DNA from: an uncultured Lachnospiraceae bacterium
GTDB taxonomy: Bacteria; Bacillota; Clostridia; Lachnospirales; Lachnospiraceae
NCBI GenBank assembly: GCA_902789175.1
Contig: CADANF010000024.1
Coordinates: 1 to 42,754, forward strand
DNA length: 42,754 nucleotides
Direction: 5' to 3'
The notes beneath the pieces are model-generated. The model saw nothing but the letters and a program-made list of their open reading frames with translations, made no database searches and was not told the origin of the DNA. Positions 11,170 to 32,604 of the stretch are shown one piece after another (the stretch's first letter is position 1; the number at the start of each line of letters is the position of its first letter). A program made the position numbers and the translations under genes.

Positions 11170-12723
11170 ATGTCTAAAGTTATTATGGTTCAGGGGACCA
11201 TGTCAAATGTCGGAAAAAGTCTTATAGTTGCCGGTCTTTGCAGGATATTTAAGCAGGATGGTTATAGGGTAGTACCATTTAAATCTCAGAATATGGCGCT
11301 TAATTCCTATGTTACAAAAGATGGCTTTGAAATGGGGCGCGCCCAGGTAATGCAGGCTGAGGCTGCAGGGGTCGAGCCTTCAGTATATATGAATCCAATA
11401 CTTCTAAAACCTACCAGTGATAAGGGGTCTCAGGTTATAGTTAATGGCGAAGTTTTAGAGGATATGAATGCCAGGGACTATTTTAAATATAAGAAGAAAC
11501 TTATACCTGTAATAAAAGAGGCATTTAAAAGATTAGAAGAAGAGGCAGATATTATCGTTATTGAAGGTGCAGGTAGTCCAGCGGAGATAAATCTAAGAGC
11601 TGATGATATTGTAAATATGGGAATGGCAGAGCTTGTTGATTCAAATGTGCTTCTTGTGGGAGATATTGATCCGGGTGGAGTATTTGCTCAGATTTACGGT
11701 ACAGTAATGCTTCTTACGGAAAATGAAAGAGACAGGATTAAAGGCCTTATAATAAATAAATTCCGGGGAGATAAGACGCTGCTTGATCCGGGAATAGTAA
11801 TGCTTGAAGAAAAGACTAAAAAAGATGTATTAGGAGTAGTTCCTTATTTATCTTTATCAATCGATGATGAAGACAGTCTTTCCATGAGATTTAAGAATAA
11901 AAAGCAGGGAATTATAAATATAGGAATAGTCCATCTTCCTCATATTTCCAATTTCACTGATTTTAATATCTTTGATCAGATAAAGGGAGTTGAAGTTCAT
12001 TATATTAAGAATCCTATGGAAATAGATGATAAGGACGTTATCATCCTTCCCGGAACTAAAAATGTTATCGATGACATGAGATTTTTAGAAAAGTCAGGGC
12101 TTTCAGATAAGATAAAAGAATATGAAAAAAATGGAAATATCATATTTGGTATCTGCGGCGGATATCAGCTTTTAGGAAAGAAGATCAAAGATCCATATAA
12201 TGTTGAGGCCGGAGGAGAGATAGATGCTTTAAGCCTTCTGGATGTGGAAACTGTTCTTTCTAAAGAAAAGATAAGAAGAAGAGTGAAGGGAAAAATAGCC
12301 GAGATAAGTGGAGAACTTGATATCTTATCAAATATAGATGTTTCCGGTTACGAGATCCATATGGGAATAACGAAAGGAAATGTTCCTTTTCTCGATAAAA
12401 TAAGTGAAATAGAAAGTAGTGATAGTAAAAATCATAAGGAAACATTTTTAGATGGTTCTTATTCTAAAAACATATATGGTTCATATGTTCATGGTATATT
12501 TGATGAGAAGAATATGGCTCTTGGTTTTATAAAAGCTCTTGCGGCAAATAAGAATAAGTGTGGAAGAATGGAAGATACAGAATATAAGAATTTTATAAAT
12601 GATCTTAAGGTTACTAATTATAAAGCCTTTAAAGAAGAGCAATATGACGTTTTAGCTGATACTTTAAGAGAGTCTTTGGATATGAAAAAAATATATGGAA
12701 TATTAAAAGATTCTGTGATATGA
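11170..12723 (+). CDS. cobQ: Cobyric acid synthase
   Basis: CobQ (CbiP) amidates four carboxylates (b, d, e and g) of adenosyl-cobyrinic acid a,c-diamide using glutamine and ATP. The N-terminal ATPase part has a P-loop variant VQGTMSNVGKS (residues 7-17) and the conserved FKSQNMALNSYVT (about 37-49). The C-terminal glutamine amidotransferase type 1 domain has GICGGYQLLGK with the nucleophile Cys near 335, and a His in SYVHGIFD near 441. At 517 residues it is normal. An SD-like GGAG lies 8 bases before the ATG. It stands alone upstream of the B12 riboswitch, with no riboswitch of its own in view, so it may be regulated differently from the rest of the pathway. Confidence 0.95.
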   Translation: MSKVIMVQGTMSNVGKSLIVAGLCRIFKQDGYRVVPFKSQNMALNSYVTKDGFEMGRAQVMQAEAAGVEPSVYMNPILLKPTSDKGSQVIVNGEVLEDMNARDYFKYKKKLIPVIKEAFKRLEEEADIIVIEGAGSPAEINLRADDIVNMGMAELVDSNVLLVGDIDPGGVFAQIYGTVMLLTENERDRIKGLIINKFRGDKTLLDPGIVMLEEKTKKDVLGVVPYLSLSIDDEDSLSMRFKNKKQGIINIGIVHLPHISNFTDFNIFDQIKGVEVHYIKNPMEIDDKDVIILPGTKNVIDDMRFLEKSGLSDKIKEYEKNGNIIFGICGGYQLLGKKIKDPYNVEAGGEIDALSLLDVETVLSKEKIRRRVKGKIAEISGELDILSNIDVSGYEIHMGITKGNVPFLDKISEIESSDSKNHKETFLDGSYSKNIYGSYVHGIFDEKNMALGFIKALAANKNKCGRMEDTEYKNFINDLKVTNYKAFKEEQYDVLADTLRESLDMKKIYGILKDSVI

Positions 12724-12793
12724 TACAAAACGGTTTTTTTATAATATGCCGTTTATAGTATGAGAGATATATTATAAAACAATAAAATATTGG

Positions 12794-12966
12794 ACATAAG
12801 GTGCTTTTGGATTGCAAGCCAAAAGTTAAAAGGGAAACAGGTTAAAGTCCTGTACGATCTCGTCACTGTGTTTAGGGAGTCCTTATATAGTTAGTGTCAC
12901 TGGATTATTTCCGGGAAGGCCATATATAGGGATTATGATCTTTGAGTCAGGAGACCTGCCTTATGT
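12794..12966 (+). promoter_or_regulatory. Cobalamin (B12) riboswitch
   Basis: The conserved B12 box AGTCAGGAGACCTGCC lies at 12945-12960. Upstream are the core signatures: GGTGC at the start, AAAAGGGAA, a GGTTAAAGTCC variant, and CGTCACTGTG. The P1 closing stem pairs ACATAAG (12794-12800) with CTTATGT (12960-12966). It precedes an exported CbiK-type protein and a corrinoid-type transporter. It should bind adenosylcobalamin or another cobalamin and reduce expression when the vitamin is plentiful. Confidence 0.93.
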
Positions 12967-12989
12967 TGGTACATTAAAGTCACGAGGAA

Positions 12990-13096: not shown

Positions 13097-14704
13097 ATGA
13101 GAAAGAAACTATTAACAGTTACTCTTGCTTCTCTTATGGCTCTTTCTCTTGCTGCTTGCGGTAAGACAGAGAATAAGACTGAGGCAACAACAACTGTAGC
13201 AACAGAAACTGCTACACAGTCTGATGCAAAGAGCAGTGAGGAAAAAGCAGCAGAAGTTGCTTCCCTTATTGACGCTATCTATGTTCAGGAATTTACTCCG
13301 GATACATATACAAAGTGTGAAAAGGCAAAGGCTGCCTGGGATGCTCTTACTGATGAAGAAAAGGAAATGGTTGAAGGCGAGTTCGCAGATCCTGACTATT
13401 TTGGAAGAGATACAGGAGATGCTGCCAAGGATGATCCATTAAATATGGATGACATTGGCGAAAATGAAATCCTTGTTGTAAGTTTCGGTACTTCATTCAA
13501 TGATAGTCGTGCTACAGATATTGGTGGAATCGAAAAGAAGATCCAGGCTGCAAATCCTGATTGGTCTGTAAGACGTGCATTTACAGCACAGATTATCATT
13601 AATCATGTATATGCCCGTGATAATGAAAGAATAGATAACGTTGAGCAGGCTCTTGACAGAGCAGTTAAGAGCGGCGTTAAGAACCTCATTATTCAGCCAA
13701 CTCACCTTATGCACGGTGCAGAATATGATGAACTTGTAGCAGCTCTTGATTCATATAAAGATAAGTTTGAGTCAGTTAAGGTTGCAGAGCCACTTCTTGG
13801 TGAAGTAGGAAGTGATGCTACAGTTATCAATGAAGATAAGGAAAATGTAGCTAAGGAAGTTGTAGCTGCAGCTGTTAAGGAAGCTGGTTTTGATTCAATT
13901 GAAGCTGCTGATAAGGATAGTGTTGCATTTGTATTAATGGGACATGGTACAAGTCATACAGCAAAGATCACATATAGCCAGATGCAGACACAGATGAATA
14001 CACTTGGATATAAGAATGTATTTATCGGAACAGTTGAAGGTGAGCCTGAAGAAACAGAATGCAGCAAGGTTATTGAAGCTGTAAAGGCTGCAGGATATAA
14101 GAAGGTAGTTCTTCGTCCACTCATGGTAGTTGCTGGTGATCATGCAAACAATGATATGGCTGGTGATGATGAAGATTCATGGAAGTCAATGTTCATAGCT
14201 GCAAAGGCTTTTGACTCAGTTGATACACAGGTTTCAGGTCTTGGTGGAATTGAAGCTATTGAAGATATCTATGTAGCTCATACAAAAGCAGCAATTGAAG
14301 CTTTAGGATCTTCTGATTCAGCATCAGAAGCTAAATTAGAAGATGGTGAATATGAAGCTGTATTTACAACAGACGGCTCAATGTTTCATATCAATGAAGC
14401 TTATGATAACAAGGGTAAGCTTACAGTTAAAGATGGTGTAATGACAATGCATATTGTTCTTACATCAGATAAGATCGTTAACCTTTATCCTGGTTCAGCA
14501 GAAGATGCTGCAAAGGATGGAGCAGAGCTTTATCAGCCAACAAAAGAAACTGTTGAATATAGCGATGGAACTACAGAAGAAGCAAATGCATTTGATATTA
14601 CAGTTCCAGCTATCGGTGAGGAATTTGATCTTGCACTTATCGGTTCAAAGGGAAAATGGTATGATCATAAGGTAAAGGTTACAGATCCAGTTAAAGTACA
14701 GTAA
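13097..14704 (+). CDS. Exported CbiK-type cobaltochelatase lipoprotein with C-terminal beta domain
   Basis: The central region (about 120-405) matches CbiK, the class II chelatase that inserts cobalt into sirohydrochlorin. Signatures are ILVVSFGTSF, QPTHLMHGAEY, VLMGHGTSH (His283, a likely catalytic or metal ligand), RPLMVVAGDHANND (His349) and DSWK. Unlike cytoplasmic CbiK, it carries a lipoprotein signal with lipobox LAAC (Cys21), an acidic linker, and a helical FIVAR-like segment (about 51-95). Residues 412-535 form an extra beta-rich domain resembling NEAT-type tetrapyrrole-binding modules; a similar module occurs in the next gene's product. It is the first gene behind the B12 riboswitch. 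Extracellular chelation, or corrinoid/tetrapyrrole handling at the cell surface, is inferred. The start has AGGAGG 8 bases upstream. Confidence 0.85.
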   Translation: MRKKLLTVTLASLMALSLAACGKTENKTEATTTVATETATQSDAKSSEEKAAEVASLIDAIYVQEFTPDTYTKCEKAKAAWDALTDEEKEMVEGEFADPDYFGRDTGDAAKDDPLNMDDIGENEILVVSFGTSFNDSRATDIGGIEKKIQAANPDWSVRRAFTAQIIINHVYARDNERIDNVEQALDRAVKSGVKNLIIQPTHLMHGAEYDELVAALDSYKDKFESVKVAEPLLGEVGSDATVINEDKENVAKEVVAAAVKEAGFDSIEAADKDSVAFVLMGHGTSHTAKITYSQMQTQMNTLGYKNVFIGTVEGEPEETECSKVIEAVKAAGYKKVVLRPLMVVAGDHANNDMAGDDEDSWKSMFIAAKAFDSVDTQVSGLGGIEAIEDIYVAHTKAAIEALGSSDSASEAKLEDGEYEAVFTTDGSMFHINEAYDNKGKLTVKDGVMTMHIVLTSDKIVNLYPGSAEDAAKDGAELYQPTKETVEYSDGTTEEANAFDITVPAIGEEFDLALIGSKGKWYDHKVKVTDPVKVQ

Positions 14705-14710
14705 TTTTTT

Positions 14711-14738
14711 AGCCCACGGCATATGTCGCGGGCTTTCT
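14711..14738 (+). terminator. Weak terminator/attenuator after CbiK-like gene
   Basis: AGCCCACG (14711-14718) pairs with CGCGGGCT (14727-14734) with one mismatch, followed by a short T-rich run. It may reduce read-through into the transporter genes, giving more CbiK-like lipoprotein than transporter. Confidence 0.5.
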
Positions 14739-14777
14739 GTAATTTAAAAAGATATTAAAAAACGGAGGTTTAAAGAT

Positions 14778-16406
14778 ATGACTCGATTAAAAAAAATAAG
14801 AAAGGCTGTATCTTTATGCCTCCTTTTTGTCTTTTTTTTATTAATGATCAGTGGCTGCGATGTAAATAAAAGAGAAAGTAATGGAGCAATCAACGCTACT
14901 GATAGTAAAGAAGAGAATGCTACAGATGAAGAAAAAGAACAGTGGCTCACAATTGATCTGTCCGGTGGAACAGGCAAGGCAAGTATAGAGTCACCTGTAA
15001 AGATAACATCTAACGATGGAAAGTATTATGCAAATATTATCTGGAGCAGTTCAAATTATGATTATGTAATATTAAATAATGAGAAATATTTGAATGAGTC
15101 TGCCCCGGGAGAAAAAAGCAGTTTTACTATCCCTGTGGAATTAGATGAGGAAATCCCGCTTATTGCTGATACTACAGCAATGAGTAAAGCTCATGAGATT
15201 GAATATACTATAAAGATTTATAGTAAAAATGAGGCAGAAGCAGAACAAAGGGATAATAATGAAAACATAAATAAAGCTGAGAGTGGCAAAAATGGTGATA
15301 CTTCTCAGAAAAAATCATCAAAGATAAAAGAAAAATATGAAGAATGTAAAAATCTTCTTTCAGAAAATGGAATAAAAAAACAGGATAAAAGCATTATAGA
15401 ATATGCTAAAGAAATTGAAATAGAAAGTTATGAAGATGATATTTATCTTATTTATATAAATGATATTGGTGTTTATTTACTGCTTCCAAAGGACAACAAG
15501 CTTGATAAGAAATTAGAGGAAAAGATAAATGAAATAGAGGATCTATATATCTTAAGAAAGGATATGGATAAAACTTATCTTGTATCAACTTCCGTTATGG
15601 ATCTTATATTATGCATCGAGGCATCTGATAATATCAGATTGTCAGGTACAAAGAGTAGTGACTGGTATCTTCCGGATGCAAAAAAACTGCTGGATAGTGG
15701 TAACATTTTATATGCAGGAAAATACAGTGCACCGGATTACGAACTTATCTTAAGTGAAAAATGTAATTTAGTGATCGAAAACATGATGATAATGCATACG
15801 CCGGAAGTACTGGAGAAATTAAGAAGTCTTGGTATACCTGTTATAGTTGAAAGATCAAGCTATGAGGACAGCCCTGAGGGAAGGCTTGAATGGATAAAAT
15901 TATACGGTATCTTATATGGAAAAGAAGACAAGGCAGATAAATATTTTGAAGAAGAGGTAGATCGTATAAAAAAAGTATCAAAGAAGGGAGACGTTAGTTG
16001 TGCCTTCTTTGCTATTAATCAGAATGGAGCTGTAAATATAAGAAACAGCAGTGACTATATTGCAAAAGATATTGAGATTGCAGGCGGCAAATATCTTCCT
16101 GACATAGATAATGGGGATAAAAAATCCACAATGAATATTCAGATGGAAGAGTTTTATGCCATGGCAAAGGATGCGGATGTGCTTATTTATAATGGCACGA
16201 TTGAAGGGGAATTAAAGGATATTAATGACCTGATAAAAAAGAATGCCTTATTTAAGGATTTTAAGGCGGTAAAGAATGGCAGAGTTTATACCACAACTGC
16301 TGACTTTTTCCAGCAGTCCAGCATGACTGGAGAGTTTATAGAGGATCTTTTTGCGGTACTATATGAAAATGGCAGTGAACTTACATTTTTAAAGAAACTT
16401 AATTAG
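14778..16406 (+). CDS. Corrinoid/metal-tetrapyrrole ABC substrate-binding lipoprotein
   Basis: This is a solute-binding lipoprotein for an importer of the FecCD/BtuCD class. The signal peptide ends in a lipobox ISGC (Cys27). Residues about 55-150 form a beta-rich module with IIWSSSNYDYV and the SSFTIPV and TTAMSKAHEIEYT signatures, in the style of NEAT-like domains. After a charged linker (150-185) a type III periplasmic-binding domain runs from about 205 to 542, seen in KSSDWYLPDAKKLLDSG, CNLVIENMMIMHTPEVLEKL and GIPVIVERSSY. At 542 residues it is longer than BtuF because of the extra module. Position behind the B12 riboswitch and before permease and ATPase genes supports corrinoid or precursor uptake. 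Heme or siderophore cannot be excluded by sequence. Confidence 0.85.
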   Translation: MTRLKKIRKAVSLCLLFVFFLLMISGCDVNKRESNGAINATDSKEENATDEEKEQWLTIDLSGGTGKASIESPVKITSNDGKYYANIIWSSSNYDYVILNNEKYLNESAPGEKSSFTIPVELDEEIPLIADTTAMSKAHEIEYTIKIYSKNEAEAEQRDNNENINKAESGKNGDTSQKKSSKIKEKYEECKNLLSENGIKKQDKSIIEYAKEIEIESYEDDIYLIYINDIGVYLLLPKDNKLDKKLEEKINEIEDLYILRKDMDKTYLVSTSVMDLILCIEASDNIRLSGTKSSDWYLPDAKKLLDSGNILYAGKYSAPDYELILSEKCNLVIENMMIMHTPEVLEKLRSLGIPVIVERSSYEDSPEGRLEWIKLYGILYGKEDKADKYFEEEVDRIKKVSKKGDVSCAFFAINQNGAVNIRNSSDYIAKDIEIAGGKYLPDIDNGDKKSTMNIQMEEFYAMAKDADVLIYNGTIEGELKDINDLIKKNALFKDFKAVKNGRVYTTTADFFQQSSMTGEFIEDLFAVLYENGSELTFLKKLN

Positions 16407-16433: not shown

Positions 16434-17444
16434 ATGAAGCGAAATATAGTAGTTTTTAGCACACTTTTTCTGGGACTGATCTTAATAACATTATTCTCTA
16501 TTAAAGCAGGAAGTGTATCTTCTGACTTTAAAGAATGCCTTAGCATATTAGCAGGAAATAAGGAAAATGAAGTGCTTTATAGTATCATATGGCAGATAAG
16601 GATACCAAGAGTCATCGCCGCGATAATTCTTGGAGGAGCGCTTTCTGTGGCAGGATATCTGCTTCAGACATTCTTCTTAAATCCTATTGCAGGACCTTAT
16701 GTTTTGGGAGTTTCCTCCGGAGCAAAGCTTCTTGTAGCAATAACTATGATATTTAGTTTAAAAAAGGGAATAATACTTAATTCCTGGACGCTTATAGGAG
16801 CTGCATTCCTTGGGGCTCTTATTTCCATGGGGATTGTGCTTCTTATATCTTTCAGGATAAGGTCTATGTCTATTCTTGTAGTCTGCGGGATCATGATAGG
16901 TTATATCTGTTCAGCAGTAACAGAGATATTAGTAACATTTGCAAATGATACCAATATAGTTAATCTTCACAACTGGTCTCAGGGATCATTTTCAGGTGTT
17001 TCCTGGGAAAATGACAGGATGATACTTATAATCGTATTCTTATGTTTAGCTTTAACAGTTTTTTATATTAAGCCAATAAATGCCTATAGATTAGGAGAAA
17101 AATATGCTGCTTCCCTTGGCGTAAATATAAGGGGGCTTAAGATCGCACTTATCATATTATCAAGTTTACTTGCGGCAGTGGTAACAGCATTTGCAGGGCC
17201 TGTGTCATTTGTAGGGATAGCGGTGCCACATTTGATGAGACGTGCCTTTAAGACAGGCAAACCGGGAGTGCTTATTTTTGGATGCTTCCTTGGGGGAGCA
17301 ATAGTAACACTTCTTTCCGACACATTGGCAAGGATGATATTTGCGCCACTGGAACTTTCCATCAGTACAGTTACTGCAGTGCTTCTTGCACCAGTCATTG
17401 TGATCATGATGATAAGAAAACATAAGGCAGGTGATAATCTTTGA
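16434..17444 (+). CDS. FecCD/BtuC-family ABC permease
   Basis: This is the membrane subunit of the corrinoid-type importer, 336 residues with about ten hydrophobic segments, the usual BtuC number. Family signatures are WQIRIPRVIAAIILGGALSV (near 48-70), AGYLLQTFFLNPIAGPYVLG, LGEKYAASLGVNIRGLK near 222-238 (the cytoplasmic coupling region for the ATPase) and AGPVSFVGIAVPHLMRR (near 257). The ORF is complete. It starts 27 bases after the binding-protein gene and overlaps the ATPase start by four bases, so the three genes form one transport cassette. Confidence 0.92.
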   Translation: MKRNIVVFSTLFLGLILITLFSIKAGSVSSDFKECLSILAGNKENEVLYSIIWQIRIPRVIAAIILGGALSVAGYLLQTFFLNPIAGPYVLGVSSGAKLLVAITMIFSLKKGIILNSWTLIGAAFLGALISMGIVLLISFRIRSMSILVVCGIMIGYICSAVTEILVTFANDTNIVNLHNWSQGSFSGVSWENDRMILIIVFLCLALTVFYIKPINAYRLGEKYAASLGVNIRGLKIALIILSSLLAAVVTAFAGPVSFVGIAVPHLMRRAFKTGKPGVLIFGCFLGGAIVTLLSDTLARMIFAPLELSISTVTAVLLAPVIVIMMIRKHKAGDNL

Positions 17445-18226
17445 GTAATACAGTTATAAAAATTGATGAACTTACTGCCGGTTATGGAAAAAAAGAGATA
17501 ATAAAGGACTTTTCCATTGATATAAATGAGGGTGAGATAATCAGTATCATAGGGCCTAACGGAGTAGGAAAGTCTACTCTGCTTAAGACCATCAGAAATG
17601 AGATCCCTTCCATTAAGGGGAAAGTTTCTTATAGAAGTGATGATGGGGAATTTAGAGATATTAAGCTTATAAAAGATATTGAAAGAGCAAGGCTTATTGC
17701 TGAAGTTTCAACTGAAAAGATAAGATCTGAGATGCTTCTTGCAAAGGAAGTTGTGGAATTGGGAAGATACCCTTATACCAATAGATTCGGGATCCTTTCG
17801 GATGAAGATAAAAGAAAAGTAGATGAAGCAGTAGAAATAGTTGGTGCCAGGAAACTTTTAGATAAAGAATTTTTAAGAATGAGTGATGGAGAAAAGCAGA
17901 TCATTATGCTGGCCCGGGCTATAGCCCAGGATACTAAGGTACTGATTTTAGATGAACCCACATCTTATCTGGATATCAGATTTAAGATAAAGATAATGAA
18001 AGTGATAAAAAGACTGGTTTCTGAAAAGAACATCTCTTGTATCATGTCTCTTCACGAACTGGAACTTGCTAAATATATATCAGACAGGGTACTTGCAGTA
18101 AATAATGATAAGAGGATAGAGAATAAAGATACAGATAATACTTTCAGAGAAGAGAATATAAAGGATTTATATGGTCTTTCAGAGGAAGATCTAAAAATAT
18201 ATAAAGAAATATATAATGTTATCTGA
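17441..18226 (+). CDS. BtuD/FecE-like ABC ATPase
   Basis: This ATPase drives the preceding permease. Walker A is GPNGVGKST (about 38-46), the Q-loop region follows, the signature is a variant MSDGEKQ (about 147-153, instead of LSGGQ), Walker B is VLILDEPTSYLD (about 166-177) and the switch His is in MSLHELELA. The start is TTG at 17441, overlapping the permease stop as TTGA, typical of translational coupling. At 261 residues the length is normal. The following gene, cbiC, is only 32 bases away, so import and corrin-ring synthesis are expressed together. Confidence 0.92.
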   Translation: MSNTVIKIDELTAGYGKKEIIKDFSIDINEGEIISIIGPNGVGKSTLLKTIRNEIPSIKGKVSYRSDDGEFRDIKLIKDIERARLIAEVSTEKIRSEMLLAKEVVELGRYPYTNRFGILSDEDKRKVDEAVEIVGARKLLDKEFLRMSDGEKQIIMLARAIAQDTKVLILDEPTSYLDIRFKIKIMKVIKRLVSEKNISCIMSLHELELAKYISDRVLAVNNDKRIENKDTDNTFREENIKDLYGLSEEDLKIYKEIYNVI

Positions 18227-18258
18227 TCGTGAATGAAACAGAGCAGGGAAAAACGGTT

Positions 18259-18894
18259 ATGGCAAATAATGAATTTGAATATGTAAGACCAGAGGAAATA
18301 GAAAAGAGATCCTTTGAGATAATAACAAAAGAATTAGAGGAGCAGGGAATCGTCTTAACAGGAGATAAGTCTCCTGTGATAAAGAGAGTGATCCATACAT
18401 CTGCTGATTTTTCTTATGCTGAAAGCCTTATCTTTTCGCCGGATGCAGTTAAAAAGGCAAGGGACCTTATAAGAGATGGAGCCTGGATCGTTACAGATAC
18501 TAATATGGCGCTTTCCGGGATCAATAAGAAGAGACTGGCTATGTATGGAGGAGAAGCCCGCTGTTTTATGGCAGAAGAAGATGTGGCGAAGGAAGCGAGA
18601 GAAAGAGGAGTGACCCGTGCCACAGTAAGTATGGAATATGCTGCAAAGCTGGATAAAAGGATCATTTTTGCTATAGGAAATGCACCAACTGCACTTATCA
18701 CACTAAATCAGCTTATAAAAGATAAAGTGTTCATTCCGGATTTTATAATCGGTGTTCCTGTTGGTTTTGTAAATGTAGTTTATTCCAAGGAACTTATCAT
18801 AAACGGAAATGTTCCTTATATCGTTAACAGGGGAAGAAAGGGTGGAAGCAATATAGCAGCGGCTATATGCAATGCGCTTCTTTATGGTATGTAA
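18259..18894 (+). CDS. cbiC: Cobalt-precorrin-8 methylmutase
   Basis: CbiC moves the C-11 methyl group to C-12, giving cobyrinic acid. Conserved sequences are RVIHTSADFSYAESLIFSP, the WIVTDTNMALSGI segment, FAIGNAPTALITL and IIGVPVGFVNVVYSKE, together with the terminal GRKGGSNIAAAICNALL. The His in VIHTSAD is the likely catalytic residue. I chose ATG at 18259 because AGGG lies 10 bases upstream. A GTG at 18229 is in frame but lacks a ribosome site and would add ten residues. At 211 residues the length is normal. The stop codon is directly followed by the cbiD start. Confidence 0.92.
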   Translation: MANNEFEYVRPEEIEKRSFEIITKELEEQGIVLTGDKSPVIKRVIHTSADFSYAESLIFSPDAVKKARDLIRDGAWIVTDTNMALSGINKKRLAMYGGEARCFMAEEDVAKEARERGVTRATVSMEYAAKLDKRIIFAIGNAPTALITLNQLIKDKVFIPDFIIGVPVGFVNVVYSKELIINGNVPYIVNRGRKGGSNIAAAICNALLYGM

Positions 18895-20019
18895 ATGAAT
18901 CTAAAATATGGATTTACTACCGGAAGTTCAGCAGCAGCGGCGTCAAAGGCAGCGATTCTTATGCTCCTTTCCGGAAAAATTAAAGATAAGATATCAATAA
19001 GTACTCCAAAGGGGATTACATTTAACGCAGACATTAAGGATATAAAGCTTGATCTTAAAGCTTTAGAGGCAAGTTGTGCTGTGGAAAAGAATGGAGGAGA
19101 CGATCCGGATATAACCACAGGACTGCTTATATATTCAAAGGTATCGATAATAGAAAATGACATAGATGAACTTCTTATTGATATTGATGGTGGTGAAGGA
19201 GTAGGAAGAGTTACTAAGCCGGGACTTGATCAGCCTGTTGGAAATGCGGCTATTAATTCTATGCCACGAAAGATGATAGAAAAGGAAGTTCGTGAAGTGG
19301 CAGAACTCTATGACTTTAAAGGAAAGATCAGAGTTTTGATCTATGTTCCTTTTGGAAGAGAGACTGCTAAAAAGACATTTAATGAAAGACTTGGGATAAT
19401 AGGTGGCATTTCAATCCTTGGTACCAGCGGGATAGTAGAACCAATGTCTGATCAGGCGCTTCTGGATACTATAAGGGTTGAGCTAAATCAAAGAAAGGCT
19501 CTGGGAGATGAGATAATAGCTATAACTCCTGGAAATTACGGACAGGAATTTATGCTCAGAGCCTATGATTATCAGCTGGACAGATCTGTTAAATGTTCCA
19601 ACTTTATTGGGGACACTATTGATATGGCGGCTGAAACAGGGTTTAAGAAAATGCTATTAACAGGCCATATAGGAAAACTTATAAAACTATCCGGCGGTAT
19701 TTATAATACCCATTCAAAGAATGCTGATGCAAGGATGGAGCTTCTCCTTGCGGCAGGAATAAGAGCAGGCCTTGACGCTGTGTCAGGAAGAAATATACTT
19801 GATGCAGTATCAACGGAAGAAGGAATAAGGATAATAAAAGAAGCTGGATGCTTTGAAGAAACGATGAAATATATGATGGAAAAGATTATGTTTTTCCTTA
19901 ATAAAAGAGCCAGTGGAAAGATTGATATAGAATGTATCGTCTATTCCAATAATTACGGGCTTTTGGCAAAGAGCGACGGAGCAGAAAAATTGCTGGATGC
20001 CTTAATGAAGCAGGGATAA
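18895..20019 (+). CDS. cbiD: Cobalt-precorrin-5B C1-methyltransferase
   Basis: CbiD methylates C-1 of cobalt-precorrin-5B in the anaerobic pathway. The N-terminal YGFTTGSSAAAASKAA is the family hallmark. Further conserved segments are NGGDDPDITTGL, VGRVTKPGLDQPVGNAAIN, GISILGTSGIVEPMSDQAL and LLTGHIGKLIKLSGGIYNTH. At 374 residues the length is normal. cbiD occurs only in the oxygen-independent route, so it identifies this cluster as the cobalt-early pathway. It begins immediately after cbiC without a gap. Confidence 0.95.
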   Translation: MNLKYGFTTGSSAAAASKAAILMLLSGKIKDKISISTPKGITFNADIKDIKLDLKALEASCAVEKNGGDDPDITTGLLIYSKVSIIENDIDELLIDIDGGEGVGRVTKPGLDQPVGNAAINSMPRKMIEKEVREVAELYDFKGKIRVLIYVPFGRETAKKTFNERLGIIGGISILGTSGIVEPMSDQALLDTIRVELNQRKALGDEIIAITPGNYGQEFMLRAYDYQLDRSVKCSNFIGDTIDMAAETGFKKMLLTGHIGKLIKLSGGIYNTHSKNADARMELLLAAGIRAGLDAVSGRNILDAVSTEEGIRIIKEAGCFEETMKYMMEKIMFFLNKRASGKIDIECIVYSNNYGLLAKSDGAEKLLDALMKQG

Positions 20020-20044
20020 TTATTTATGATACGGGAGATGTGAA

Positions 20045-20821
20045 ATGGTACATTTTGTTGGTGCAGGATCTGGAGCAGTGGATCTTATAACTGTAAGAGG
20101 TATGAATTTAATAAGTAAAGCAGATATAGTGATATATGCCGGATCCTTAGTAAATAAAGATATGCTTCAATATATGAAAGAAGGGGCAGAAAGCTATGAC
20201 AGTGCCTATCTTACTTTAGAAGAAGTTATAGATTTGATAAAGAAGGCTGAGGCAGAAAATAAGAATGTGGTAAGACTTCATACAGGAGATCCAAGTCTTT
20301 ACGGAGCTATAAGAGAGCAGATGGACGAGATGGACGAACTGGGTATTTCCTATGATGTAACACCTGGAGTTACAGCAGCCTTTGGAGCGGCTGCAAGTCT
20401 TGGACTTGAATATACACTTCCTGAAATAACACAAACCCTTATAATCACAAGGGTTGAAGGAAGAACTCCTGTACCTCAGTTAGAAAAGGTAAGAGAACTG
20501 GCAAAGCATAAAACTTCCATGGCAATTTATTTAAGTACAGGGCTTCTAAAAAAATTAGAAGAAGAATTAAAGTCAGCAGGTTTAGATGAAGATACTCCGG
20601 CAGCGATTGTTTATAAGGCAACCTGGCCTGAAGAAGAAAGATATATATGTACAATCAGCACTTTAGAAGAAACAGCTAAGAAAAATAACATTAAAAAAAC
20701 TGCTATAGTACTTGTTGGAGAAGCAATAAGGACAGTGTCAAAGGACAGTAAGGCAGTAAGATCAAAACTTTACTCACCGGATTTTGAGACTGAGTTTAGA
20801 AAGATCAATATAGAACAATAG
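20045..20821 (+). CDS. cbiF: Cobalt-precorrin-4 C11-methyltransferase
   Basis: CbiF (CobM) adds the C-11 methyl from S-adenosylmethionine. It is a class III SAM methyltransferase: FVGAGSGAVDLITVRGMNLI at the N-terminus, ADIVIYAGSLVNKDML, then VVRLHTGDPSLYGAI (SAM-binding loop near 78-92) and DVTPGVTAAFGAAASLGLE. These are CbiF-specific signatures. At 258 residues it is normal. GGGAGATG provides the ribosome site. It lies between cbiD and cbiG. Confidence 0.95.
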   Translation: MVHFVGAGSGAVDLITVRGMNLISKADIVIYAGSLVNKDMLQYMKEGAESYDSAYLTLEEVIDLIKKAEAENKNVVRLHTGDPSLYGAIREQMDEMDELGISYDVTPGVTAAFGAAASLGLEYTLPEITQTLIITRVEGRTPVPQLEKVRELAKHKTSMAIYLSTGLLKKLEEELKSAGLDEDTPAAIVYKATWPEEERYICTISTLEETAKKNNIKKTAIVLVGEAIRTVSKDSKAVRSKLYSPDFETEFRKINIEQ

Positions 20822-20861
20822 TAGTTGTAAGGATAAATAGGAGATAAGATCGAAAGAAACA

Positions 20862-21917
20862 ATGATAAAAAGAGTGATCTATTTTACTGATGAAGGAGAA
20901 AAAGTTAAAGAAGAGATAGTAAAGCTTTATACCACAGATCTATGTCTTTCCCTAGATGGAAGAAAAAATGATGCAAGAAGCTTTATCTTTGATGGCTTTA
21001 AATATCATAATCCTATTATCTTTATTGGTGCTTTAGGTATAGCTGTAAGGATGATGAAAGATCTTTCGCAGGATAAATTAAAGGATAGTGCTTTTATTGT
21101 AATGGATGAAAGAAAAAGATATGTTATCCCCGTTTTATCAGGACATATGGGTGGTGCTATAGAACTTTCGTATGACATTTCCAAAAGACTTGGCAGTGAA
21201 GCAGTTATAACAACAGCAACGGATGTGGAAGAAAAATTCTCAGTAGATACATTTGCAAGGATCAATCATCTTAAGATAAAAAATAAAGAGATGATAAAGA
21301 AGGTATCCGCAAAGGTTTTAGATGGAAAAGAGATTAGGATTGCCATACCAAAAGATTGTAATTTCATAGGAGAACCCTGGGATAAGGTAAGTATTATAAA
21401 GTATAGACAAAAAGAAGTATCTGCGGATGTTCTGATAACTGAAGATGATAGTCTGGAACTTTGTAAAAATAAAGAAATGCTTATCATGAATCCTGCCCGA
21501 TATATCTTTGGAATTGGTGTAAGGAAAGGTAAAACATTTGAAGAGATAAATAGTTTTTTTATAGATAATGGAGTAAGCCGTCAGTGGATGGAGGAGAATA
21601 TTCTTTATTTTACAAGCATTGATCTAAAGGTTAAAGAAGAAGGACTTCTTAATCTGGCTTCATTTTATCATACAGAACTGATCACATTTAATGCTATGGA
21701 GTTATCTAAAATTAAAGGTGATTTTAAAGAATCTGAATTTGTAAAGAAAACTGTCGGAGTTTCAAATGTATGTGAAAGGGCAGCTTTTCTTTTAGCCAGC
21801 AGATTGGATAAGAATTTTGATAATAAATTTTATAAAGAAAAAACAGCAGGTAACGGGATTACATTTGCAATAACTAAAATAGAGAGAAATAGGTTCAGAT
21901 GGAGAGGAAAATTCTAA
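20862..21917 (+). CDS. cbiG: Cobalt-precorrin-5A hydrolase
   Basis: CbiG opens the delta-lactone of cobalt-precorrin-5A and releases acetaldehyde. The N-terminal domain shows FIGALGIAVRMM and the VIPVLSGHMGGAIELSYDIS motif (about 88-107), a central linker follows, and the C-terminal domain carries the GIGVRKGKTFEEI motif (about 220-232) plus KTVGVSNVCERAAFLLAS near the end. At 351 residues it has all three parts. Its stop codon TAA shares its last A with the ATG of cbiH, indicating translational coupling. Confidence 0.93.
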   Translation: MIKRVIYFTDEGEKVKEEIVKLYTTDLCLSLDGRKNDARSFIFDGFKYHNPIIFIGALGIAVRMMKDLSQDKLKDSAFIVMDERKRYVIPVLSGHMGGAIELSYDISKRLGSEAVITTATDVEEKFSVDTFARINHLKIKNKEMIKKVSAKVLDGKEIRIAIPKDCNFIGEPWDKVSIIKYRQKEVSADVLITEDDSLELCKNKEMLIMNPARYIFGIGVRKGKTFEEINSFFIDNGVSRQWMEENILYFTSIDLKVKEEGLLNLASFYHTELITFNAMELSKIKGDFKESEFVKKTVGVSNVCERAAFLLASRLDKNFDNKFYKEKTAGNGITFAITKIERNRFRWRGKF

Positions 21918-22660
21918 TGGAAGACAGTATGGGAAAAATATTTGTTGTAGGTTTTGGACCTGGAAATAAAGAAAATATGACGATAGATGCGCTGAATGCT
22001 ATTGAAGCATCAGATATCATCATTGGATATACAGTTTATATAGAACTTATGAAAAAAATGTATCCCTTAAAGGAATACCAATCTACACCAATGAGAAGCG
22101 AGATTGAAAGATGTCGCCTTTGTTTTGAAAAAGCTAAAGAGGGTAAAGTGGTTTCACTTATATGCAGTGGAGATGCGGGAATTTATGGGATGGCATCTCC
22201 TGTCCTTTCGCTTGCTGATGAATATGATCTTCATGATATTACTATAATTCCTGGTGTTACAGCGGCTGTATCAGGTGGGGCAGTTCTTGGTTCCCCTCTT
22301 ACATCAGACTTTTGTGTAGTGAGTCTTAGCAATGCTCTTACTCCATGGGAAGTTATTGTAAAAAGATTAAAGGCAGCGGCCAGTGGAGGCTTTGTAACTG
22401 TTCTTTATAATCCGAGAAGTAAGACAAGGCCAGGCCTTTTAAACGAAGCCGTTGATATTGTTATAAATGAAGGGGTTAGTAAAGATACTCCGTCAGGCTA
22501 TGTTAAAAATATAGGAAGAGATAAGCAGGAATATAAGATACTTACTTTAGAAGAGTTAAAGACAGCTGATATTGATATGTTTACAACAGTATTTATCGGT
22601 AATGAAGAAACAGAAGTTATAAATGATAGATTAGTAACTAGAAGGGGTTACAAAATATGA
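21917..22660 (+). CDS. cbiH: Cobalt-precorrin-3 C17-methyltransferase
   Basis: CbiH (CobJ-like) methylates C-17 and contracts the ring in the anaerobic route. Signatures are VVGFGPGNKENMTIDALNAI, ADIIGYTVYIEL-type sequence, SLICSGDAGIYGMASPVL (SAM loop), TIIPGVTAAVSGGAVLGSPL and VLYNPRSKTRPGLL. I start at ATG 21917, which has GGAGAGG about 9 bases upstream and overlaps the cbiG stop by one base; an upstream ATG at 21899 would add six residues. The product is 247 residues, normal length. Its end overlaps the next gene by four bases (ATGA). Confidence 0.93.
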   Translation: MEDSMGKIFVVGFGPGNKENMTIDALNAIEASDIIIGYTVYIELMKKMYPLKEYQSTPMRSEIERCRLCFEKAKEGKVVSLICSGDAGIYGMASPVLSLADEYDLHDITIIPGVTAAVSGGAVLGSPLTSDFCVVSLSNALTPWEVIVKRLKAAASGGFVTVLYNPRSKTRPGLLNEAVDIVINEGVSKDTPSGYVKNIGRDKQEYKILTLEELKTADIDMFTTVFIGNEETEVINDRLVTRRGYKI

Positions 22661-24762
22661 GGAAAATACTTCTATTTGCAGGCACCACAGAAGGGCGTAT
22701 TTGTGCCGAAAAATTAAAGAAATATGGCATTTCAATGGATGTCTGTGTAGCAACTGAATATGGAAAAGAAATGATCGAGCCTTCTAAGTTTATAAATATC
22801 CTTCGGGGAAGGCTTGATCTTAATGGGATAAAGGATCTGATAGATAAAAATGATTATCAGCTTGTAATTGATGCTACTCATCCTTATGCTACATGCGTAA
22901 GTAAGAACATTAAGGAGGCTGTAGAATCGAGGAATCTGCCATATATAAGGATTAAAAGAGAGTCATTATTTTTAGATTACGGAATCTATTTTAACAACTA
23001 TGATGAAATGATCCTTAGGTTAAAGAATACAAAGGGAAATATACTTCTTACTACAGGAAGTAAGGAACTTATCAGATTTTCATCAGATCCAGATCTAAAA
23101 GAAAGACTAATTGTGAGGGTTATTCCGGGAGAAGAAAGTATAAGGCTATGTAGTGAATTAGGAATAGAAAGAGAAAAGATAATAGCGATGCAGGGACCAT
23201 TTTCATTTAATATGAATCAGGCCATCATAAAGGAATATGATATAAAGATTCTTGTAACAAAAGAAAGTGGAACTGCAGGGGGATTTAGAGAAAAGATAGA
23301 GGCTGCAAAAAAGGAAGGTGTAAGCTGCTTTATTTTACGCAGGCCTAAAGACGATCTAAATGAAGAGGGGATTTCTCTGGATGATGCTATAGAAAAAACA
23401 TTTGAGTTTATGGGCATAAAGAAAAACAATATAAGCCCTGGTGGGATTCAAAAGAAAAGTAATATAAGCCTTATCGGAATAGGAATGGATGGTGAAAGAA
23501 CCCTTACCATAGAGGCAAAAAGGTATATAGAAGAGGCAGATCTTATATATGGTGCCAGCAGGATGATAGATTCTGTGGCATATTTAAACCCTAAGGCTTT
23601 ATATAAGAAAATGTATATCAGTAAAGATATTTTAGATGATATAAAAAAGCAGCTTTCATCTACGAATGAAGTGAAAAATATAGCTATTCTTTATTCTGGA
23701 GATACCGGATTTTACAGCGGGGCTTCTAAAATGAGAGACTATATTTTAAATGATGAATTTATCAAAGAAAGGATAGAATTAAAGACTCTTCCGGGAATCT
23801 CATCACTTTCAATGATGGCAGCAAGATGTAACATTTCCTATGAGAATATTGAAATAATAAGCAGTCACGGGGTCAGTGAGGATATCTGGGAAAAGAAATT
23901 AAAAAATGCTCTTGCAGAAGATAAAAATATTTTCCTGATTACATCAGGAAGAGGAGATGTAAGGTGTATCATAGATATAGCATGCCATGTTTCTAAAGAA
24001 TATCTGATCTATCTGGGAAGAAATCTTTCTTATGAAGATGAAGAAATTACTGTTATTAATTCAAAAGATTTTAATATAAAGGATATTGATGACACTGAAG
24101 GGCTTTATTCTATTATAATAAAGAGAGTTCCTGATGATAGAATATATGATGACGAGAATGATAAGAATATAGATGACTTAAATATTCTTGGTCTTAGGGA
24201 TGAAGAATTCCTTAGAGATGAAAAGACTCCAATGACTAAGGAAGAAGTTAGGGAGATCATCGTTTCAAAACTTCGCCTTAGAGATGGGGATATTCTCTTT
24301 GATATAGGCAGCGGAACAGGTTCTATAGCAATACAAGCTTCAATGTTAAAAGATATAGAAGTTTATGCAGTAGAAGAAAAAACATCTTCCTGCCTCCTTA
24401 TAAAGAAAAATATAGAAAAGTTTGGCTGCAGGAAGATAAGTATTTTTAATGACAGGGCAAGTAATGTAATAGATTCATTTCCAATGCCGGATGCTTTATT
24501 TATAGGTGGAAGCGGAGGGGAATTAGAAGAGATCATAGCAAAGCTTAATTCTAAGAAAAATGAAGATAAGAGAAGGAAGATCAGAGTTGTTATAAGCACT
24601 GTTACCCTGGAGACAGAAATGGAAATCTATGATCTTATAAAAAAATATGAGCCAGAAGATTTAGATATTGTTGAAGTTAACATTTCAAAAGCAAGAAAAC
24701 TGGGAAGATATAATCTTATGAAGGCCGAAAATCCTATAAAGATTATCTCATTTAAATTATAA
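22657..24762 (+). CDS. CbiJ-CbiE-CbiT trifunctional fusion
   Basis: This single 701-residue chain joins three corrin-pathway enzymes. Residues 1-255 are CbiJ, cobalt-precorrin-6A reductase (FAGTTEGRICAEKL, VIDATHPYATCVSKNI, MQGPFSFNMN, TKESGTAGGFREK). Residues 268-490 are CbiE, the C5 methyltransferase (IGIGMDGERTLTIEA, ILYSGDTGFYSGA, LPGISSLSMMAARC). Residues about 511-701 are CbiT, the C15 methyltransferase and decarboxylase (KTPMTKEEVR, then the Rossmann SAM motif FDIGSGTGS at 548-556, and ALFIGGSGGELEEI). CbiE-CbiT fusions (CobL-like) are common; the extra N-terminal CbiJ is less usual. Linkers of about 12 and 20 polar residues separate the parts. Each domain looks complete. It overlaps cbiH by four bases. 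Confidence 0.92.
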   Translation: MRKILLFAGTTEGRICAEKLKKYGISMDVCVATEYGKEMIEPSKFINILRGRLDLNGIKDLIDKNDYQLVIDATHPYATCVSKNIKEAVESRNLPYIRIKRESLFLDYGIYFNNYDEMILRLKNTKGNILLTTGSKELIRFSSDPDLKERLIVRVIPGEESIRLCSELGIEREKIIAMQGPFSFNMNQAIIKEYDIKILVTKESGTAGGFREKIEAAKKEGVSCFILRRPKDDLNEEGISLDDAIEKTFEFMGIKKNNISPGGIQKKSNISLIGIGMDGERTLTIEAKRYIEEADLIYGASRMIDSVAYLNPKALYKKMYISKDILDDIKKQLSSTNEVKNIAILYSGDTGFYSGASKMRDYILNDEFIKERIELKTLPGISSLSMMAARCNISYENIEIISSHGVSEDIWEKKLKNALAEDKNIFLITSGRGDVRCIIDIACHVSKEYLIYLGRNLSYEDEEITVINSKDFNIKDIDDTEGLYSIIIKRVPDDRIYDDENDKNIDDLNILGLRDEEFLRDEKTPMTKEEVREIIVSKLRLRDGDILFDIGSGTGSIAIQASMLKDIEVYAVEEKTSSCLLIKKNIEKFGCRKISIFNDRASNVIDSFPMPDALFIGGSGGELEEIIAKLNSKKNEDKRRKIRVVISTVTLETEMEIYDLIKKYEPEDLDIVEVNISKARKLGRYNLMKAENPIKIISFKL

Positions 24763-24832
24763 AGAAATTTTTTATTTTTTGCACAAACGGCAGTGGATGC
24801 GAAAGATTTAAGATAAAAAAAAGGGAGCATCA

Positions 24833-26197
24833 ATGAAAAATTATCCGGGAATTTTAATAGCTGCGCCTCAAAGTGGCAGTGGTAAGACGCTTATCACTAT
24901 ATCTTTACTAAGAGCCTATTCTTCTCTTGGGTTAAAGATAGGTGCATTTAAATGTGGCCCAGATTATATAGATCCTATGTTTCATAGAAAGGTATTAGGA
25001 CTTCCTTCAAGAAATCTTGATCTTTTCTTTGTTGATAGAGAGAAATTAAGGGAAATATATAGAGATAAAAATAATAATGACCTTTCTATAGTGGAAGGAG
25101 TTATGGGGCTTTATGACGGTTCTGATATTAAGAGTTATGTTTCCTCAGGCTATGATATTGCGGCTGCGACAGGTCTACCTATTATACTTGTTATAAATGC
25201 CAAAGGAATGGGAAGAAGTGTTATCTCACTTATAAAAGGTTTTAAGATAGATGATGATAAGAATCAGATAAAGGGAGTTATCTTAAACAGGATAACTAAG
25301 TCATTTTACGAACGATTAAAGCCTTTGATAGAAGAAGAAACAGGACTTACATGTCTTGGCTTTTTTCCTGAGGATAAGGAATTAAATATTTCCAGCAGGC
25401 ATCTAGGCCTTATGCAGCCTGAAGAAATAAAAAATTTAAATATACTGATAGATAAGGCAGCTCTTATTGCTAAAGAAAGTATAGATCTGGATAAAATAAG
25501 AGAGATAGCTGATAGTTATTGTAAATTACTATTAAAAGAATCTGACTTAAAAGAAGCGGATCATTTAGAAGATAAGAATATAAATAGAAAGCGTATTGCA
25601 GTAGCAAGGGACGAGGCATTTTCCTTTTATTATGAAGAAAATCTTGATATTTTAAGAAGATACTTTAACCTTACTTTTTTCTCGCCTATAAGGGATGAGA
25701 GATTGCCGGAGGATATAAGCGGAATTATCATTGGCGGCGGATATCCGGAAGAATATGCTAAAGAACTTTCCTCTAATAAATCCATGAAAGAAAGTATATT
25801 TAAAGCGTTAAAAAGGGGAATGCCGGTAATAGCTGAATGTGGAGGCTTTATGTATCTTTCTAAGACTCTTACCACAAAAGAAGAAAATAGCTATGAAATG
25901 GTAGGCTATGTGGATTCGAATATAAGATTTATGGGAAAGCTGGTAAGATTTGGCTACTGTGAGATAGAAGATAAAGCCACAGGAATAAAAATCCGTGGCC
26001 ACGAATTCCACTATTTTGATTCAGATAATAATGGTGATGGATGCATTATAAGAAAGAAAACAGTAGATAAGTCATGGCACGGAGTTCATAGAAATGATAA
26101 CCAGTGGATAGGTTATCCACATTTATATCTTCCTTCTTCAGAAGAATTTATAAACTGGTTTGTTTTTCAGGTAATGAATTATTCTGATAAAAACTAA
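24833..26197 (+). CDS. cbiA: Cobyrinate a,c-diamide synthase
   Basis: CbiA amidates the a and c carboxylates of cobyrinate with glutamine and ATP. The N-terminal domain has IAAPQSGSGKTLITISLL (P-loop), FKCGPDYIDPMFH and VEGVMGLYDG. The C-terminal amidotransferase domain has IIIGGGYPEEYAKELS, the nucleophile Cys in PVIAECGGFMYLS (near 331) and RGHEFHYF with GVHRNDNQWIGYPHLY near the end. At 454 residues it is normal. AAAGGGAG precedes the start. A 70-base gap without a terminator follows the fusion gene, so it is probably the last gene of the riboswitch operon. Its stop codon overlaps that of the convergent HAD gene. Confidence 0.95.
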   Translation: MKNYPGILIAAPQSGSGKTLITISLLRAYSSLGLKIGAFKCGPDYIDPMFHRKVLGLPSRNLDLFFVDREKLREIYRDKNNNDLSIVEGVMGLYDGSDIKSYVSSGYDIAAATGLPIILVINAKGMGRSVISLIKGFKIDDDKNQIKGVILNRITKSFYERLKPLIEEETGLTCLGFFPEDKELNISSRHLGLMQPEEIKNLNILIDKAALIAKESIDLDKIREIADSYCKLLLKESDLKEADHLEDKNINRKRIAVARDEAFSFYYEENLDILRRYFNLTFFSPIRDERLPEDISGIIIGGGYPEEYAKELSSNKSMKESIFKALKRGMPVIAECGGFMYLSKTLTTKEENSYEMVGYVDSNIRFMGKLVRFGYCEIEDKATGIKIRGHEFHYFDSDNNGDGCIIRKKTVDKSWHGVHRNDNQWIGYPHLYLPSSEEFINWFVFQVMNYSDKN

Positions 26198-26891: not shown

Positions 26892-27971
26892 ATGTTAAGT
26901 CTTAAAGAAACAATAGAAAAAAATTTAATATATGACAGATCAGCGTGTGGCAAAGTGAAGGAAAGATTTGATAAGGTGGCGAAGCCTTTAGACAGTTTAG
27001 GAAAGTTTGAAGAGCTGATATCAAAGATCGGCGGTATCAGAGGAAGCGTTGATGTAAGTATTGATAATCCGGTTCTTATAATTTTTGCATCAGATAATGG
27101 AATAGTAGATGAAAATGTAAGTCAGTCAGATCACAGTGTAACTACAGAATGTGTAAAGAATATCGCGGATTATAAAAGTGTTGCTGGTGTATTTGCAAAG
27201 AAGGCTGATGCAAAGATTAAAGTCTATGATATGGGTATAATAGATGATATAGATCATGATAAATATCACATTACAAATAAAAAAATAAGAAATGGTACTT
27301 CAAATTTTCTAAAGACCAGTGCCATGACAAGAGAAGAAGTGATAAAGGCTATAGAAATAGGGATAGATGCAGCATTTTCACTTAAGGAAGAAAACGCAGA
27401 TATTATCTGTATCGGAGAGATGGGAATCGGAAATACAACCACTTCTAGTGCTGTTATCGCAGGCCTTCTTAAGATGCCTGCCAGAGATGTAACAGGTTAC
27501 GGAGCAGGGCTTTCGGATGAAGGATATAAAAGAAAGATAGAAGTTATAGATAAAGGGATAAAAAAATATGACTTATATAATAAAGATCCCCTTACTATCT
27601 TACAGAACGTTGGTGGCTTTGATATAGCAGCAATGTGTGGCATGGTGATAGGCTGTGCCGTTAATAATATCCCTGTTATATTAGATGGCCTTATAAGTCT
27701 AACAGCAGCCTATCTGGCTAAACTTATCACAGGAAAAAATATAGAAGATTTTGTCATAGCTTCTCATGTTGGTAAAGAAAAAGCTGTTAAGATATTGCTG
27801 GAAAGATTAAAACTGGATGCAGTTATTGATGCTGATATGGCTTTAGGAGAAGGAACCGGCGCGCTTCTTATGCTGATATTATTAAAGACGAATATCTTAG
27901 TTTTAGATGATACTATAAGATTTGAAGATACTGATATTGAGCAGTATGTAAGATTACATGAGGAAAGTTAA
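26892..27971 (+). CDS. cobT: Nicotinate-nucleotide:DMB phosphoribosyltransferase
   Basis: CobT activates the lower-ligand base by forming alpha-ribazole phosphate from nicotinate mononucleotide. Signatures are the N-terminal KPLDSLGKFEEL, IFASDNGIVDENVSQSD, GEMGIGNTTTSSAVIAGLL (about 175-193), NVGGFDIAAMCGMVIG and the catalytic Glu in MALGEGTGALL (near 316-326). At 359 residues it is normal. AAAGGAG lies 12 bases before ATG. It begins the second half of the island after the inverted HAD gene, and cobU follows directly. Confidence 0.94.
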   Translation: MLSLKETIEKNLIYDRSACGKVKERFDKVAKPLDSLGKFEELISKIGGIRGSVDVSIDNPVLIIFASDNGIVDENVSQSDHSVTTECVKNIADYKSVAGVFAKKADAKIKVYDMGIIDDIDHDKYHITNKKIRNGTSNFLKTSAMTREEVIKAIEIGIDAAFSLKEENADIICIGEMGIGNTTTSSAVIAGLLKMPARDVTGYGAGLSDEGYKRKIEVIDKGIKKYDLYNKDPLTILQNVGGFDIAAMCGMVIGCAVNNIPVILDGLISLTAAYLAKLITGKNIEDFVIASHVGKEKAVKILLERLKLDAVIDADMALGEGTGALLMLILLKTNILVLDDTIRFEDTDIEQYVRLHEES

Positions 27972-28502: not shown

Positions 28503-28522
28503 ATAAAAGAAAAGGTAGTTTT

Positions 28523-29308: not shown

Positions 29309-29329
29309 AATAAAGGAAATGATATTAAT

Positions 29330-31160: not shown

Positions 31161-31174
31161 AGAGGTAAAACTAA

Positions 31175-32551: not shown

Positions 32552-32604
32552 GGATTATGAGTGATACATACACATCATTTAGCTATAAGGAGGAAGGGAT
32601 AGCT

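Follow-up and report, generated by a model that had tools for sequence, protein, structure and literature searches.

What is a chelatase of the vitamin B12 pathway doing on the outside of a cell, behind a B12 riboswitch and in front of the genes of an importer? The question is raised by a 42,754-nt stretch of DNA (contig CADANF010000024.1, referred to here as the window) from an uncultured Lachnospiraceae bacterium, in which a gene for a CbiK-type chelatase lipoprotein is followed by those of a substrate-binding protein and a BtuCD-like transporter. The host genome, in which the window is contig C24, comprises 2.75 Mb and is 99.64% complete. We consider it fairly probable that the locus salvages an early B12 precursor at the cell surface, based on a gap in the host's tetrapyrrole pathway and on the observation that HemC loss and an exported-only CbiK tend to coincide among Lachnospiraceae. 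The core of the locus is composed as follows:

12782..12977, + strand: cobalamin riboswitch (RF00174, 104.9 bits)
13097..14704, + strand: putative exported CbiK-type chelatase lipoprotein with a C-terminal NEAT module, 535 amino acids (open reading frame; CbiK E value 9.2e-71; lipobox by eye)
13469..14299, + strand: CbiK catalytic domain, residues 125-401 (Pfam; alignment to 1qgo)
14327..14701, + strand: predicted NEAT module A, residues 411-535, with an invariant WYDH and a V two residues on
14778..16406, + strand: BtuF-like substrate-binding lipoprotein, 542 amino acids (open reading frame; Peripla_BP_2, E value 1.5e-32)
14925..15242, + strand: predicted NEAT module B, residues 50-155, with an invariant HE..Y
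16434..17444, + strand: BtuC-like permease of the FecCD family (FecCD, E value 1e-76; best NCBIfam family BtuC, under its cut-off)
17441..18226, + strand: BtuD-like ATPase (ABC_tran, E value 4e-26; best NCBIfam family a corrinoid ABC ATPase, under its cut-off)

The order of riboswitch, CbiK-like gene and binding-protein gene, as given in the original prediction for this DNA, was reproduced by the open reading frames and the RF00174 match, which is the only one in the host genome and ends 119 nt before the chelatase start. Likewise as predicted, the chelatase carries a complete CbiK domain (PF06180 positions 3-262 of 262) behind a lipoprotein-type signal with the lipobox ...LSLAAC. Its score against the NCBIfam equivalog SiroCoChCbiK is 182.6 bits at a cut-off of 400, so the protein is to be regarded as a homologue and not as a confirmed equivalent of CbiK. 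The nearest solved sequences are FetB (9b86, E value 1.2e-35; presumably identical with IhtB), the cobalt chelatase CbiK (1qgo, 6e-34) and a putative chelatase (2xvx, 7.2e-27), which we take to originate from Porphyromonas gingivalis, Salmonella and Desulfovibrio, respectively. H283, H349, E314 and E209 of the window protein align with H145, H207, E175 and E89 of 1qgo, and the catalytic His and Glu residues are kept in 81/81 sequences; a loss of the chelatase histidines in homologues, named beforehand as speaking against the prediction, was not seen. Judged from the sequence, the catalytic site is intact. For Salmonella CbiK, H145 and H207 have been reported to matter for the insertion of cobalt (PMC7689651). 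The closest relatives of the window protein carry Lachnospiraceae titles. The 80 named relatives used below were the best matches to the whole chelatase protein, so their chelatase is present by construction; 76/80 have a lipobox by a simple rule, and in 74/80 module A lies within the chelatase open reading frame. One locus (L156, genome G085) has a tandem pair of exported CbiK genes with one cobalamin riboswitch each.

Does the host make the substrate of this enzyme? Neither HemC nor HemB was found in the host genome and no SUMT match exceeded its cut-off (HemA, HemL and HemD were not searched), while the corrin-ring set of CbiL, K, H, F, G, D, J, E, T, C and A was found, plus CbiP and CbiB. 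With these early enzymes missing and the later ring steps kept, the host apparently cannot produce the substrate of its chelatase. Five tetrapyrrole-methylase matches are present: CbiF, CbiH and CbiE in the window, CbiL on contig C37, and a 16S rRNA methyltransferase on contig C20. The CbiL match, a lone gene, scores 156 bits, just under the cut-off of 163.25, and CbiL is its best family; it lies away from the B12 operon (L086, G000:C37), and its neighbour resembles an AraC-type regulator gene. Three matches to the Met8/CysG-B domain are spread over two proteins: two fall in a single TrkA potassium-transport protein (C4), and the third (C23) belongs, by sight, to a TrkA-like protein beside a membrane protein and has no NCBIfam match at 1e-20. 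No second CbiK or CbiX was found in the host genome, the only recognised chelatase of which thus appears, from its N-terminal signal, to sit outside the cell.

We surveyed 150 Lachnospiraceae genomes (149 genera, host genome included) and fetched the CbiK neighbourhoods. HemC was found in 69 of them, CbiK in 90, CbiD in 90, HemB in 51, SUMT (over cut-off) in 71, CbiL (over cut-off) in 67 and CbiM in 56 (52 over cut-off). CbiK location was called by a simple lipobox rule on the N-terminus, with G001, G088 and G104 judged exported by eye. A split into long and short CbiKs by match length proved imperfect, as the short-type CbiKs of G064, G115 and G136 are lipoproteins as well. Genome G110, whose CbiK is split over two matches, remained unclassified; it was counted as none/other among the HemC-bearing genomes and left out of the CbiD tree described below. 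Among the 29 genomes with CbiD and without HemC, CbiK is exported-only in 23, cytosolic-only in two, absent in four and of both kinds in none; the 61 CbiD genomes with HemC comprise 33 with cytosolic-only CbiK, 17 with both, nine with exported-only and two with none or an unclassified one. Exported-only CbiK is therefore found in 23/29 genomes without HemC versus 9/61 with it (Fisher p 3.6e-9, relatedness ignored), and any cytosolic CbiK in 2/29 versus 50/61 (p 4.9e-12, relatedness likewise ignored). SUMT follows HemC, exceeding its cut-off in one of the 29 HemC-less genomes (G105) and in 61/61 HemC-bearing ones. HemB is absent from all 29 (a partial 24-bit match in G127 was counted as spurious) and present in 42/61 HemC-bearing corrin builders only, so that its absence alone does not mark a HemC-less genome. 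A separate CbiX as cytosolic substitute was not found: the listed matches coincide with CbiKs already identified, apart from a single one in G069, a genome without any CbiD or CbiK match. The pathway gap and the association with HemC loss both favour the view, expressed in the original prediction, that the locus serves the salvage of a corrinoid precursor, putatively a sirohydrochlorin-type ring, and not simple vitamin import.

How would such a ring be caught? According to the original prediction, the C-terminal module of the chelatase (412-535) resembles one at the N-terminus of the binding protein (about 55-150). Plain BLASTP finds no match between modules A and B (E value 0.15); the resemblance emerged from profile-profile comparison (hhalign 93.3%, E value 2.6e-7) and from the predicted structures, for both of which the leading solved matches are NEAT proteins. 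The models thus place both modules in the NEAT beta-sandwich fold, and unrelated folds, set out in advance as counting against the idea, were not seen. First-round models of A and B matched each other weakly (27 cross hits); since 11 of the hits used to train the A model overlapped with B domains, cleaner evidence comes from hhalign and the predicted folds. NEAT is also the Pfam family matched by most members at E values up to 1 (46/61 for module A, 36/61 for module B). The likeness to NEAT domains holds for the predicted fold and fails for the Pfam gathering score and the ligand motif: module A of the window reaches 14.4 bits where 32.8 are required, and module B has no NEAT match listed in the Pfam search (E up to 1). 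A sequence search of solved structures returned, for module A, IsdX-type NEATs at E values no better than 0.04-0.08 and, for module B, a single weak non-NEAT match. Haem-binding NEATs typically carry a YxxxY haem-ligand pair; at this site, located in each model from its last strand, module A has YxxxV in 61/61 and module B HxxxY in 61/61 sequences. In the window the two modules are split between chelatase and binding protein, and among relatives they are also found on lipoproteins of their own, singly or in tandem, encoded between chelatase and btuF. At the 80 named loci, 64 of the open reading frames grouped with CbiK have A alone and 16 have A followed by B, and 50 BtuF-type frames carry module B. 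Beside an exported-CbiK cluster of genome G066, a giant surface-type open reading frame (L161:1-4986) has four NEAT-like modules in the order B-A-A-A.

The binding protein itself starts with a lipoprotein-type signal (...LMISGC, by eye) and contains Peripla_BP_2 at residues 269-508 (Pfam). With the adjoining FecCD and ATPase genes the BtuFCD-type set is complete, which bears out the predicted BtuCD-like importer behind the chelatase. The specific NCBIfam cut-offs are not reached (195.7 of 334 bits for the best BtuC, 161.4 of 537 for the best corrinoid ATPase), and the BtuF sequence had no match among solved structures at an E value of 0.001. BtuF and BtuC lie next to the chelatase in 45 of the 65 named loci that have more than 3.5 kb downstream, and of the 23 genomes with exported-only CbiK and no HemC, 21 have both genes in the stretch that contains the exported CbiK.

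Taken as a salvage system, the NEAT modules on chelatase and binding protein would capture an extracellular tetrapyrrole of the sirohydrochlorin type. CbiK, held at the surface by its lipid anchor, would then insert cobalt into the captured ring, or swap another metal for cobalt, and the cobalt-charged ring would pass to the BtuF-like protein for import by BtuCD; inside, CbiL and the remaining pathway would complete the corrin. We infer the ligand, catalysis outside the cell, the hand-over from module to module, the import of the product and the direction of the metal reaction.

The reaction could also run in reverse. In that case the exported chelatase would strip iron from NEAT-bound haem or sirohaem and the ABC (ATP-binding cassette) transporter would import iron or the ring. 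For such an iron acquisition system, which we regard as unlikely, it can be argued that FetB was deposited as a haem-binding protein and that the titles of the matched NEAT structures describe haem binders; the modules of our loci, on the other hand, lack the YxxxY pair. The regulation also argues for B12: a cobalamin riboswitch was present in 26 of 27 scanned exported-CbiK loci, the exception being L140. These loci represent 27 genomes (22 HemC-less and five HemC-bearing) out of the 48 besides the host that have an exported CbiK. For 25 of the 26 riboswitch-bearing loci, the riboswitch is located 52-394 nt 5' of the CbiK start, and in L127 the distance is 1,410 nt, the gap being occupied by the gene of a module-B lipoprotein. 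Upstream of the window chelatase, the Rfam scan gave the cobalamin riboswitch only, with no search aimed at iron-regulator sites. In addition, the chelatase shares an operon with corrin-ring genes, exported CbiK is confined to genomes with CbiD (49/49, at 90/150 overall) and is associated with HemC loss, none of which favours an iron function, although a like gene set of P. gingivalis (IhtB with IhtC, D and E) is read as haem/iron uptake (PMC10913741).

Several findings, given in this and the next two paragraphs, weigh against a salvage system or at least against a single uniform scheme, as the exceptions for CbiL, CbiK and HemC indicate. Nine HemC-bearing genomes, all with SUMT, carry exported CbiK only, which is why an exported-only CbiK is no proof of salvage; in these, either the self-made precursor meets cobalt in another way or the pathway uses an imported ring. 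Four HemC-less CbiD genomes have no CbiK at all (G031, G077, G109 and G121; L147 to L150, respectively), and in G051 and G127 the only CbiK is cytosolic. No CbiL is recognisable in 13 of the 23 genomes that have exported-only CbiK and no HemC (G003, G034, G058, G060, G064, G076, G083, G105, G111, G115, G132, G134 and G141), and among the ten counted as CbiL-positive, G000 and G007 are just under the cut-off. Without CbiL these 13 could not use cobalt-sirohydrochlorin itself and would need a C20-methylated ring (factor III) or another enzyme; their imported ring may be a later one, for instance factor III. At the threshold used, 20/65 named loci with room have no BtuF downstream, and G075 and G101 have neither BtuF nor BtuC near the exported CbiK. 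Another reading is a plain cobalamin or cobinamide importer, in which the chelatase, a former enzyme, would only bind corrinoids beside BtuFCD. A BtuC/BtuD-like transporter under a B12 riboswitch is an ordinary arrangement, and the nine HemC-bearing genomes with exported-only CbiK, together with the 17 having both kinds of CbiK, are in line with this reading. We nevertheless give it little probability, as the catalytic His and Glu are invariant (81/81), the host has no cytosolic chelatase that we could find, and the retained ring-building genes would be useless without a precursor.

The control for relatedness is weak. The CbiD tree (89 of 90 rows, without G110) is poorly resolved, only 7/86 inner branches being starred. 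HemC absence requires 18 changes on this tree and is thus scattered. Using supported branches only, there are three independent pairs, with a median p of 1 and no power. A pairing over all branches, made with our own script and resting on unsupported branches, gave 18 pairs for HemC absence: 10.5 for and 1.5 against an association with loss of cytosolic CbiK (median p 0.022), and 9.4 for and 2.0 against one with exported-only CbiK (median p 0.065). For exported-only CbiK and absence of stand-alone CbiM, 19 pairs gave 8.0 for and none against (median p 0.008).

In what form does cobalt enter the cell? Stand-alone CbiM, assigned by hand from open-frame length and the sole cobalt importer covered, occurs in 0/32 exported-only versus 23/35 cytosolic-only genomes (p 1.6e-9, relatedness ignored); the count includes G015 (367) and G128 (305), where the match and CbiK share a contig and are a few kb apart at most. 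Within the cytosolic-only group, it is found in 22/33 genomes with HemC and 1/2 without. The 0/32 fits cobalt entering already inside the ring. This has to be tempered, since a long-frame CbiM match in seven of the 32 exported-only genomes, including the host, makes cobalt import possible (a PDGLE fusion was seen for the host only). The host's 342-amino-acid CbiM-PDGLE permease was at first considered a nickel permease from its length, and is named cobalt transporter CbiM by NCBIfam (469 bits, cut-off 401); the idea that the host has no cobalt importer was dropped. The CbiM pattern, which extends to the nine HemC-bearing genomes, is also what would be expected if the exported chelatase loaded cobalt into any tetrapyrrole, mainly as a carrier for cobalt uptake. 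Given the seven long-frame matches, and as the link with HemC loss would be left unexplained, such cobalt scavenging seems quite improbable to us.

With salvage of an early B12 precursor as the favoured explanation, the locus can be compared with known systems. Desulfovibrio CbiK (2xvx) has the same fold and histidines and is an exported, periplasmic protein; a second CbiK has reportedly been described for the same species, going by the title of Lobo et al. 2008. Salmonella CbiK (1qgo) is alike in its catalytic domain with the equivalents of H145 and H207; it is cytoplasmic and, unlike in the window's host, its substrate sirohydrochlorin is made in the cell. The chains of 2xvx (269 amino acids) and FetB (293 amino acids) align with the window chelatase over the CbiK domain only. 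The NEAT haem relay proteins IsdX1, IsdX2, Hbp2 and IsdC, as well as Shp, share the predicted fold of our modules, which differ from them in being fused to a chelatase and a binding protein, in the altered haem-ligand motif and in B12 control. The FetB/Iht system of P. gingivalis resembles the window locus in combining a CbiK-like lipoprotein with binding protein, permease and ATPase (PMC10913741). It differs in its Gram-negative setting, its TonB receptor IhtA and its interpretation as haem/iron uptake, with the proposal that it strips iron from haem (PMC10913741). P. gingivalis, too, is listed as lacking the steps to precorrin-2 (PMC6461909).

Tetrapyrrole-precursor salvagers were defined by Shelton et al. 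(PMC6461909), and precorrin-2 salvagers were quoted as 0.6% (PMC8123684). The latter resemble our host in missing early ring steps and keeping later ones; the accessible text of Shelton et al. names no uptake system for them, for which the window locus is a candidate. For rumen B12-synthesiser bins, a cobaltochelatase is noted alongside BtuF, BtuC and BtuD, and it is this enzyme that is said in passing both to transport sirohydrochlorin and to add cobalt (PMC12654859). The accessible part of that paper differs in containing no NEAT modules and no argument from location or pathway loss, and a bin in which the early steps are missing is counted there among the cobinamide salvagers. No literature pairing "NEAT domain" with "CbiK" or with "sirohydrochlorin" was found in a search whose coverage mostly excluded subscription papers. 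What sets the window locus apart from the known combination of an exported CbiK with BtuFCD is the presence of NEAT modules and a pathway context pointing to B12-precursor salvage.

Precorrin-2 salvagers have been predicted from gene gaps, and the locus offers a candidate for their uptake route, none having been found in the literature surveyed. It would imply a trade in early B12 precursors among gut microbes, and suggests a role of NEAT domains in handling further tetrapyrroles besides haem. Where extracytoplasmic CbiK proteins have been interpreted as haem-iron enzymes, they would be worth revisiting with sirohydrochlorin and cobalt. We see about even chances for a broader proposal, namely an import machine for isobacteriochlorin precursors in which NEATs have shifted from haem to a sirohydrochlorin-type ring and cobalt is chelated before uptake, with precorrin-2 salvage being widespread among Lachnospiraceae; by the same reasoning, Iht would have to be reinterpreted as B12-precursor uptake.

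The remaining B12 genes of the window flank this core on the same strand:

11170..12723, + strand: CbiP (cobyric acid synthase), 5' of the riboswitch (NCBIfam cobyric acid synthase, 630 bits, cut-off 273)
18229..26197, + strand: corrin-ring genes cbiC, cbiD, cbiF, cbiG, cbiH, cbiJ-E-T fusion and cbiA (CbiF above its cut-off)
26892..32224, + strand: late genes cobT, cobU, cobS, a partial second cobU, cobC, cbiB and cobD (CbiB above its cut-off; CobC and CobD best families but under theirs)

The second CobU (29330-29653, + strand) is incomplete, covering positions 79-165 of 168, and lies shortly 3' of the full one (27972-28502). Between cbiA and cobT, a HAD-family hydrolase is encoded on the opposite strand (26194-26838, - strand). 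The B12 operon is followed at its 3' side by genes for a GH9 cellulase (32557-34890, + strand) and an amylase with CBM26 modules (35446-37695, + strand).

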